Shown here in pieces: positions 36,455-56,729 of a DNA stretch of 64,000 nucleotides. Below the pieces are notes generated by a model. The model was not told where the DNA came from. It was given only the letters and a program-made list of their open reading frames with translations, and made no database searches. Each line of letters begins with the position of its first letter. Position 1 is the stretch's first letter. The position numbers and the translations under genes were made by a program. This DNA comes from Deltaproteobacteria bacterium RIFCSPHIGHO2_02_FULL_40_28 (GTDB taxonomy: Bacteria; UBA10199; 2-12-FULL-40-28), in assembly GCA_001798135.1 (NCBI GenBank), contig MGRJ01000009.1, positions 39,345 to 103,344 on the forward strand, given 5' to 3'.

Positions 36455-37911
36455 CCGAACTCACAGAACTCACAATTGGCGAAGTAAGTGGTAAGCTTGC
36501 ATCGAAGAGCATTTCTTCAGTAGAACTGACAAAAGCTTATTTGGATCGCATAGCAAAAATTGATTCCAAAGTTTGTGCTTATCTTACTGTATGTTCAGAA
36601 AGTGCTCTCTCCCAAGCAAAAGCGGTTGATTCTAAAAGATCAAAAGGAGAAACATTATCTCCCCTGGCTGGTATTCCTATTGCACCCAAGGATATTTATT
36701 TAACCCGTGGCATTGAAACAACTTGTGCTTCTAAAATTTTAAAAGGTTTTATTCCTCCCTATGATGGCACGGTGATTCAAAAATTAAAAAACGAAGATGT
36801 GGTTATTTTAGGAAAAGTTAACCTGGATGAATTTGCCATGGGATCTTCTACAGAATATTCTGCATACAAAGTAACACATAATCCCTGGGATTTAAAACGT
36901 GTGCCTGGTGGTTCTTCAGGAGGATCTGCTGCTGCTGTTGCTGCCGATCTTTGTGCAGCCTCATTGGGAACCGATACGGGAGGTTCTATTCGCCAACCCG
37001 CCTCCCTTTGTGGCAATGTGGGATTAAAGCCAACCTATGGGAGAGTAAGCCGTTATGGTGTGATTGCCTTTGCCTCAAGCCTTGATCAAATGGGGCCTAT
37101 TACCAAGGATGTTACCGATTGTGCACTTTTGATGAATGCCATAGCAGGATACGATTCTAGGGATTCTACTTCCATTAATTTACCTGTTCCAGATTACACC
37201 CAATTTTTAAATCAATCGATCAAAGGTTTGCGTGTAGGAATCCCCGAAGAATTTTTTGTGGAAGGAATGAATGCCGAAGTAAAAACATCCGTTGAAAATG
37301 CCATCAAAGAACTTCAAAAACAAGGAGCCCTTGTTGATAAGGTTTCTCTGCCTCATACAGGTTATGCCATTGCTGCTTATTATATTATCGCTCCAGCAGA
37401 GGCCAGTTCTAACCTGGCCCGTTATGATGGAGTGAGATTTGGTTTGAGAGCAAAATCAAATTCTCTTTCTGAACTGTATGAAAAATCCAGAACCGAAGGT
37501 TTTGGACCAGAAGTGAAACGCAGAATTCTTCTTGGTACTTATGTGCTTTCGGCTGGATATTATGATGCTTACTACATTAAGGCTCAAAAAACACGCACGG
37601 TGATTAGATCGGATTATGAAAAGGCTTTTCAAAAGTTTGATGTTTTGGTGACTCCAACGTCTCCTACCACTGCTTTTGCTATTGGAGAAAAAACAAACGA
37701 TCCTCTCCAAATGTATTTGGCAGATGCGTGTACCATTCCTGTTAATTTAGCAGGCCTGCCAGCAATGAGTCTTCCTTGTGGTTTTGATTCCAAAGGACTA
37801 CCCATTGGATTTCAACTTATTGGCAAGTCCTTTGACGAAGGCACTTTAATCAAAGTGGCCCATGCCTACGAGCAAACACACACCTTTCCTCAACAAAAAC
37901 CAAAGCTGTAA
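36451..37911 (+). CDS. gatA: Asp-tRNA(Asn)/Glu-tRNA(Gln) amidotransferase subunit A
   Basis: Glutaminase subunit of the amidotransferase that converts misacylated Asp-tRNA-Asn or Glu-tRNA-Gln. The 486 residues carry the amidase Ser-Ser-Lys triad: Lys in [27 protein letters not shown] and [12 protein letters not shown]. gatB is not in the window. The presence of GatCA suggests at least one indirect aminoacylation route, so the AspRS at 50369 may be non-discriminating. A repeat element begins just after the stop. Confidence 0.96.
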
Positions 37912-37917
37912 TAGAAA

Positions 37918-38023
37918 GCGGGATGGGAATTTCTTTCGGTTTCTGCGGAACTCCTTGCCTTGAAGGCTCGTCAGACAGTCCTCGGATTGAAAAAAATAGT
38001 TTTCAAAAAAGTAATCACATCCT
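37918..38023 (-). repeat. Type-1 core element at the end of the hydrolase gene
   Basis: On the minus strand the core (37943-37985) reads GAGGACTGTCTGACGAGCC, then an Ala/Gly-like AAGGCAAGGAG and TTCCGCAG. It matches the cores at 55405 and 56645. The flanks share GC.GGATG.GA in inverted order but are less regular than in the other copies. The element runs into the hydrolase coding region and supplies its last codons and stop. Confidence 0.65.
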
Positions 38024-38705
38024 GCCAATAATCCCCCACTTCATAGAAAAGTTTATGGCCGTCAGTACCGTAGGGGGGATAAACAATGAGTTCCACCTTT
38101 TTTCCTGCTTTTTTCAGGGCCTTATCGATCCGTTTCATGTTGGCCACATGGTCAACTCCCTGATGCACGTTATCATTTTGGGCGACCAAAAGCAGAACCG
38201 GAGCCAAGATCCGAAAAGCCCCTGTTTCAAAATTCCGGTTATCAGGAGGAGGAGCCGCTGCCATAATGACCAGTGCTTTGAGCTCTGGATAACGAGTGCC
38301 ACTGACATATGTGATGAGCCCTCCACTAGAAAAACCAATCATCCCAATCCGATTTCTATCGACTTTGGGTACATTTTGCAGATAGGTGAGAGCAGCGAAA
38401 ATATCGGCCATTCGTCCTGGCATCGATGTGTCAGGACGGCGGATGGGTGAAAAACCGATAAAGCCATCTTTGGCCAAAGCTTGACAAATGCCTTTTGGAT
38501 CCCCTCCAATGATATTCCCTTTTCCCCCATGATTAAAGATCACTGCTGGATAAGGCCCCGTTTCTGATGGCTTGCAAAGATAACCTTTCAAAAGAGGAGA
38601 TTGAGAATAGGTCACCTCGTCATAGGAATTATAGGAAGAAGCAGTCTGGGCTGGGAGAATTCCCGGAAAAAAGAGAAACAAGATAAAAAGTGTTATTTTT
38701 ATCAT
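37971..38705 (-). CDS. Secreted dienelactone hydrolase-like alpha/beta hydrolase
   Basis: The 244 residues begin with a signal peptide (hydrophobic 4-18, cut near PAQTAS). An alpha/beta-hydrolase fold follows with VIFNHGGKGN (oxyanion region), the nucleophile Ser126 in GFSSGG, the acid in VAQNDNVHQG and the His in GTDGHKLF. Substrate is unknown. The last codons (NPRTV and stop) come from the type-1 element. The gene converges with gatA. Confidence 0.85.
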   Translation of the reverse strand: MIKITLFILFLFFPGILPAQTASSYNSYDEVTYSQSPLLKGYLCKPSETGPYPAVIFNHGGKGNIIGGDPKGICQALAKDGFIGFSPIRRPDTSMPGRMADIFAALTYLQNVPKVDRNRIGMIGFSSGGLITYVSGTRYPELKALVIMAAAPPPDNRNFETGAFRILAPVLLLVAQNDNVHQGVDHVANMKRIDKALKKAGKKVELIVYPPYGTDGHKLFYEVGDYWQDVITFLKTIFFNPRTV

Positions 38706-55361: not shown

Positions 55362-55489
55362 TAAAAATGGGTGGCATGGAGAAGCCTCTTTATTTTTTGA
55401 TTCCGAGGACTGTCTGACGAGCCTTCGGGCGAGGAGTTCCGCAGGAACAAAAAATAAAGAGGCTTCTCCAATGACAGGACCCATTTTTA
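55362..55489. repeat. Type-1 core element with 22-bp perfect inner inverted arms
   Basis: The core (55403-55447) reads CGAGGACTGTCTGACGAGCC, TTCGGGCGAGGAG, TTCCGCAGGAAC. The arms 55378-55399 and 55448-55469 are perfect 22-base inverted repeats, and the match extends imperfectly outward to TAAAAATGGGT at both ends. The same core occurs at 56645 with quite different arms. It lies between convergent purH and the zinc-ribbon gene, where it could also terminate transcription both ways. Confidence 0.8.
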
Positions 55490-55495
55490 GGATGG

Positions 55496-55515
55496 ATCCC
55501 CGCCTACGCGGGGAT
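55496..55515. repeat. Short palindromic repeat next to the type-1 element
   Basis: ATCCCCGC and GCGGGGAT pair around CTAC, followed by GACA. The form (GGATCCCCGC...GCGGGGATGACA) resembles the hairpins inside the MITE at 38739-38978. Confidence 0.6.
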
Positions 55516-55521
55516 GACACT

Positions 55522-56597: not shown

Positions 56598-56729
56598 GGC
56601 ACAGGAGGAGGTCAAGAAGCCAGGGGGAAGTGTTTTTTGAGGAGCGAGGACTGTTTGACGAGCCCTGAGCAAAGCCTTCGGGCGAGGAGTTCCGCAGGGA
56701 CGAAAGAAATATTTCCCCCTGGCCTGTGC
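56598..56729 (+). repeat. Type-1 core element with inverted arms before lysC
   Basis: The core (56645-56699) reads CGAGGACTGTTTGACGAGCC, an 11-base insertion relative to 55403, then CCTTCGGGCGAGGAG and TTCCGCAGGGAC. The arms share GCACAGG/CCTGTGC and CCAGGGGGAA/TTTCCCCCTGG (56620-56640, 56702-56722) in inverted order, with a 14-base gap difference. They are unrelated to the arms at 55362. Confidence 0.75.

Follow-up and report, generated by a model that had tools for sequence, protein, structure and literature searches.

The described systems closest to the element considered here are the GTAG- and CGTC-tagged REPs, which are palindromes of 20-40 bp marked by GTAG or CGTC tags (Di Nocera et al. 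2013, PMC3733652). The present element resembles them in being intergenic, multi-copy and palindromic, in often lying downstream of genes, in its preference for convergent or co-directional spacers, in often forming inverted pairs, and in occurring in several phyla. In Proteobacteria it also forms divergent pairs of constant spacing, as do the REPINs/BIMEs with RAYT (Bertels and Rainey 2011, PMC3116915). It further recalls MITEs such as ERIC, NEMIS and RUP, which are likewise short, non-coding, dispersed and palindromic, intrinsic terminators, with which it shares a GC-rich hairpin behind genes, and small structured RNAs such as hammerhead-like ribozymes and riboswitch aptamers, in which a conserved internal loop sits on a covarying closing stem. 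By a small measure, the probable description is that of a REP-like non-coding palindromic element belonging to an apparently undescribed superfamily, in which a core forming an apical internal loop is carried on a long closing stem. The superfamily core is GAGGACTGTYTGAG - P3 - CGAGTTCCGCA, where P3 is the apical stem-loop, and its most conserved part is CTGTYTGAG // CGAGTT, with likely sheared G-A pairs.

The window, i.e., the whole stretch of 64,000 nucleotides that was analysed, contains the clearest copy at 55362-55489. A preliminary description of this DNA had reported 22-base perfect inverted arms with a longer imperfect extension at this site, and both are present: the 5' arm (55378-55399) and the 3' arm (55448-55469) form the perfect 22-bp closing stem P1, and longer imperfect pairing is seen as well. 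All parts of this copy are read on the plus strand. Outside the arms lie the two halves of an outer shell, AAAAATGGGTGGCAT at 55363-55377, which is common to L048, L050, L072 and hairpins with a type-2 core elsewhere in the genome, and AATGACAGGACCCATTTT at 55470-55487. Inside them follow the 5' strand of the inner stem P2 (55400-55404, ATTCC with one bulged A), the 5' half of the conserved core (GAGGACTGTCTGACGAGC, 55405-55422), the apical stem-loop P3 (GCC TTCG GGC, 55421-55430) and the 3' half of the core (GCGAGGAGTTCCGCAG, 55429-55444). The core as a whole reads GATTCC-GAGGACTGTCTGACGAGCCTTCGGGCGAGGAGTTCCGCAG-GAAC, and the RNA fold of the copy has a z-score of -8.98. Directly 3' of it, at 55491-55518, there is a simple REP-like hairpin (GGATCCCCGCCTACGCGGGGATGACAC) that by eye resembles the CGTC/TGTC-tagged REP type.

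The recurrence of the core noted in the preliminary description was confirmed, with exact matches at 56646 (plus strand) and 37966-37983 (minus strand), where 0.01 matches are expected by chance. Its statement that all three copies have inverted arms holds for the first two and fails for the third. The second copy (56613-56729, plus strand) has a type A stem, real but imperfect arms (20 nt, 85%) and an 11-nt insert (CTGAGCAAAGC) in the P3 loop. The third (37910-38008, minus strand) is decayed: an inverted-repeat search found no inverted repeat there, 10 outer-stem pairs are broken, partly by deletion, and only the core and the 3' arm are kept, the 5' arm being replaced by the coding end of an open reading frame. 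This 244-aa frame (37971-38705, minus strand), which we take by eye to be dienelactone-hydrolase-like, runs through the expected position of the 5' arm and has its TGA stop inside the core. Its last codons and stop are thus supplied by the repeat, which thereby alters the end of the protein.

Across the genome (2.16 Mb, 31 contigs), 40 copies were found; the 18-mer GAGGACTGTYTGACGAGC is exact in 39 of them, and a reversed-pattern control of the 18-mer search gave no match genome-wide. All 40 are intergenic with inconsistent orientation, and the element measures about 100 bp in this genome and more elsewhere. The fold proceeds from P1 (~20 bp) through a purine-rich internal loop, P2 and the core internal loop to P3, whose loop is frequently TTCG. 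Subfamilies can be distinguished by the inner stem, namely type A (GAGGAGC or GAGGAACC), type B (GGTTTC/GAAACC) and the AT-rich type to which the copy at 55362-55489 belongs. Several P3 loops carry an inserted palindrome, CTGAGCAAAGTCGAAG; this or a near form is seen at 56664-56679 in the window and in L052, L054 and L068, and resembles CCTGAGCNNNGTCGAAGG, a palindrome common in many bacteria.

The outer shell of the copy at 55362-55489, GGGTGGCAYG...CARTGACAGGACCC, encloses a different core (ACGCGCAGCCGTCACGTGGGCGAGCATCA) in L296-L298 and L300, and in L048 the type-1 core lies inverted inside it. Because one shell can hold a different core, none, or an inverted type-1 core, nested exchange at hairpin tips is likely in this genome, and the inversion in L048 is as arm-arm recombination or insertion in either orientation would give. 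As side observations, hairpins with the second core type, together with a core-less one (L293), occur within this shell (GGGTGGCAYGGGG...CCCCARTGACAGGACCC) at L293, L295-L298 and L300, and comparison of L048 with L041, L050 and L072 indicates that core and arms are flipped together relative to the outer shell.

To account for a constant core between seemingly local arms, the preliminary description had proposed either that insertion or growth of the core copies the neighbouring DNA in inverted form, or that selection keeps a structured RNA or terminator with free choice of stem sequence. Complementarity of the flanks beyond shuffles is evident: the alignment of all matches, which was fitted to the model and includes five reverse-strand rows, contained 277 compensatory cells against 75.6 +/- 8.8 in shuffles (covariation score 0.476 vs 0.157), and 15 copies gave 90 against 22.6. 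At arm positions 20-30 outward, 8.3 of 10 bases pair with the own partner and 5.4 of 10 with the arms of other copies, so the pairing is locus-specific. The arms of different copies had been described as unrelated, which is wrong for this genome. Purines make up 0.85-0.95 of the 5' arm at positions 17-23, 0.3-0.5 at 24-26 and 0.79-0.95 at 27-30, falling to background thereafter; in sequence the outer arms are more alike than shuffled controls up to about position 32 and not farther, and within subfamilies the arms have sequence in common as far as about position 30. Arm length is fixed at about 31 nt, 30 of 39 copies having a 5' arm that ends at 27-33 nt. Beyond the arms, sequence is at background identity between copies, the termini are not conserved, and this genome's copies have no target-site duplication (flanking direct repeats 1.51 vs 1.46 +/- 0.26 when shuffled). 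Judged from sequence, the arms look like diverged copies of one stem, related by common descent with compensated changes, rather than copied neighbouring DNA, since both the purine/pyrimidine pattern and the fixed length are common to them. Insertion into pre-existing terminators is not favoured either, given the same fixed length and common pattern.

With a covariance model the core was also recovered from other families of this class, in the general form CGAGGACUGUYUGAGC-[0-100 nt]-GCGAGUUCCGCAG. Helix variants comprise a change of GGA/UCC to CGG/CCG in genome G007 and a core within a longer stem in genome G021 (TTTTCCGACTGTCTGAGC...GCGAGTTTCGGAAAA); both support the helix. In relatives (loci L075, L078 and L085) the P3 loop holds a conserved domain of about 75 nt, CACCTTT...GCCGGGAAGCCCTGGACCAGAG...CGACG, with the look of a structured RNA in its own right. 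G021 and its congener G043, of the same class, share at least seven orthologous sites, and 7 of 7 are occupied in both, with core differences at 4 of 168 bases. One orthologous pair, L237/L241, aligned poorly. The inserts have diverged by 0-16%, exceeding flank divergence in 6 of 7 pairs. Three clean compensated double changes (GC>AT, TA>CG and AT>GC) were counted in the stems, against an expectation of about 0.6 for independent changes. Orthologous copies have stayed in place over at least one species split with the core kept; no empty/filled site pair was seen at base resolution, and no mobility was observed.

Records of some ten phyla also yielded the motif (GAGGACTGTYTGAG ... CGAGTTCCGCA) in the core-based search, with freely varying stems. 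A scan of GTDB contigs with the pattern GAGGACTGTYTGA-N(3-33)-RAGTTYCGCA returned at least 117 stretches, which by record title include Beta- and Gammaproteobacteria, Nitrospira, Lachnospiraceae, Coriobacteria/Eggerthellaceae, Bacteroidales, Patescibacteria, Myxococcota, Spirochaetes, Chloroflexi and Gastranaerophilales. Many of these records are metagenome-assembled genomes, unlike those of Dechloromonas hankyongensis, Chitiniphilus shinanonensis and Sulfuricella sp. T08. In nearly every case inspected the architecture is the same, a constant core on paired stems of differing sequence, and genomes sampled through scan matches mostly hold 7-41 copies; Chitiniphilus shinanonensis DSM 23277 has about 15 and Dechloromonas hankyongensis 7. 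In a broad sample scanned with reduced sensitivity, 7 of 385 genomes scored, so the distribution is patchy; as scoring was limited to 14 candidates per genome, this prevalence is a weak lower bound. No copies were present in phage records or E. coli, plasmid records contained three partial matches at most, and IMG/VR had matches in 2 contigs. The window elements and 18 other loci matched none of the 4227 families of Rfam 15 at the gathering threshold or at E < 5, and the core strings did not occur as text in the literature searched, which covered one paper collection.

Arrangements differ between lineages. In Rhodocyclales, divergent pairs lie about 240 bp apart and constant outer loops surround a variable stem, which is thus enclosed by constant sequence on both sides; four composites there (L105, L169, L172 and L114) consist of two divergent copies with flanking TACTTTCTTTTG-GCGAAGC-CAAAAGAAAGTA hairpins, in a unit of about 500 bp crossed by spurious open reading frames. 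Barnesiella and Nitrospira have arms common to nearly all copies, and arms are shared between copies in Gallionella. Eggerthellaceae copies are built of constant loops and free stems in alternation; in genome G066 the outermost stems of 20-45 bp have a between-copy identity of 0.46, which is background, and pair with themselves at about 0.9 (0.84 against 0.51), and the stems of the copies examined lie mostly clear of neighbouring genes. Taken across these genomes, the core hardly varies either within a phylum or between phyla, and the stems are free in sequence but held to pairing.

These comparisons bear directly on how the arms arose. That core insertion or growth copies neighbouring DNA in inverted form, by hairpin-primed or template-switch synthesis, would account for the self-paired outermost stems of G066 that are unrelated between copies, the one lineage in which such copying may have occurred, and template-switch correction could also have caused the excess of double changes in ortholog arms. 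However, the purine pattern and fixed arm length in this genome, the lack of target duplication, the arms shared between copies in Barnesiella, Nitrospira and Gallionella, the enclosed variable stem of Rhodocyclales and the position of the G066 stems mostly outside neighbouring genes all speak against it, and we consider it very improbable. The other half of the proposal, a selected structure with free choice of stem, is supported by the covariation, the fixed arm length, the compensated stems in other phyla and the three compensated pair changes in orthologs; the structured RNA or terminator named there makes up only part of it, and the copies lack orientation to transcription. A bidirectional terminator or protector of mRNA ends, whose stem would be free as only the hairpin matters, fits copies that begin close behind stop codons and prefer convergent genes (42 convergent vs 13 divergent spacers, over all copies in all genomes looked at), very stable stems, and T runs that end some copies. 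The 8 nt after the 3' arm nevertheless show no general T enrichment (T 0.37 vs A 0.32), and conservation of a core across phyla is not required of a terminator, which makes this account unlikely. A structured non-coding RNA or 3' untranslated region motif, with a protein- or ligand-binding internal loop, free stems and selection at every copy, is a possible if rather doubtful alternative. Fixed loops with free stems, purine-rich internal loops on one strand with likely sheared G-A pairs, the extra structured domains in relatives, the core kept at orthologous sites and the hairpin start near stop codons are in its favour; against it stand the copies' indifference to neighbouring transcription (single copies ++25, --28), the narrow gap that this genome leaves between gene end and arm for a promoter of the element itself, the lack of an Rfam match, and tip triloops in other phyla that are GNA in 62 of 74 cases, not GNRA/UNCG tetraloops.

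GNA triloops are of the type found in very stable DNA mini-hairpins such as GCGAAGC (cf. PMC4686876). Together with the random gene orientation, the excess of convergent over divergent spacers and the absence of replication-strand bias (no lagging-strand bias was seen in one complete Nitrospirales chromosome), they favour a DNA-level element, and we think that action as folded DNA is more likely than action as RNA. Which strand folds is fixed. Purine-rich loops on one strand with likely sheared G-A pairs, the TTCG loops of this genome, the complex inserts in relatives and an excess of GT over AC among stem mismatches (45 : 9 overall, partly from one shared site, and 6:6 in the outer arms) count against the DNA reading. 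Covarying stems, by which structured RNAs are recognised, are present and fail to separate RNA from DNA hairpins. Among specific RNA identities, a hammerhead ribozyme, considered from CUGACGAG, was rejected by eye, since GAGG stands in place of GAAA and a cleavage triplet was not apparent; inspection by eye likewise led us to drop Group II domain V.

In a Pfam search, 147 neighbour proteins proved to be ordinary, the 25 most frequent matches including no transposase family, and clustering of neighbouring open reading frames yielded only spurious frames lying on repeats and common families. No complete copy lies within 1.5 kb of 20 Y1 loci; in this genome, a partial element near one Y1 gene is a truncated copy beside rlmE. 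A link to Y1 (RAYT, PF01797) transposases was rejected, as these are absent from several hosts (G060, G062, G063, G065, G066 and G067) and not adjacent to copies.

In genomic behaviour, the element agrees with REPs in its many dispersed intergenic copies and their rarity in divergent promoter regions. Unlike REPs, however, it measures about 100 bp or more, bears no unpaired GTAG or CGTC end tag, showed no flanked tyrosine transposase, and is conserved in an apical internal loop shared across phyla, with free stems and outside sequence at background identity. It differs from REPIN/RAYT systems in that most phyla have single copies and at least six host genomes lack RAYT; from MITEs in that conservation is central and the termini vary, without conserved terminal inverted repeats in this genome; from intrinsic terminators in its conserved core of 30-45 bases and the lack of a general U tract; and from small structured RNAs in having no transcript orientation and no Rfam counterpart. 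We would class it as a new superfamily of palindromic elements that are REP-like, and place it outside the REP/RAYT group; its size and tags do not agree with REPs, its genomic behaviour does.

For this REP-like superfamily, one strand would fold into a hairpin recognised by a putative trans-acting factor. Subfamilies with shared inner stems and the patchy multi-copy distribution across phyla suggest past spread as a non-autonomous DNA hairpin, and the surviving copies may be kept folded by compensatory change or palindrome correction, which would be why their arms look local. What is observed is that copies lie between genes in no consistent orientation and are underrepresented between divergent ones; what weighs against this explanation is that no mobility was seen, that no mobiliser emerged among Y1 transposases, and that L075, L078 and L085 have RNA-like extra domains. 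A broader and more tentative idea, doubtful to a slightly greater degree than the RNA alternative, is that one ancient motif in at least ten phyla is read as a folded strand by a conserved cellular or mobile-element machine, at tens of sites per genome, the stems being continually rewritten and the loops and geometry fixed.

A non-coding motif of 25-30 bases that is kept nearly letter for letter across phyla, with tens of copies to a genome, speaks for a shared recognition partner, and the design of fixed loops on free stems makes the element directly testable. In addition, the element shows that the drift of stems with compensation can mimic a copying of the neighbourhood.
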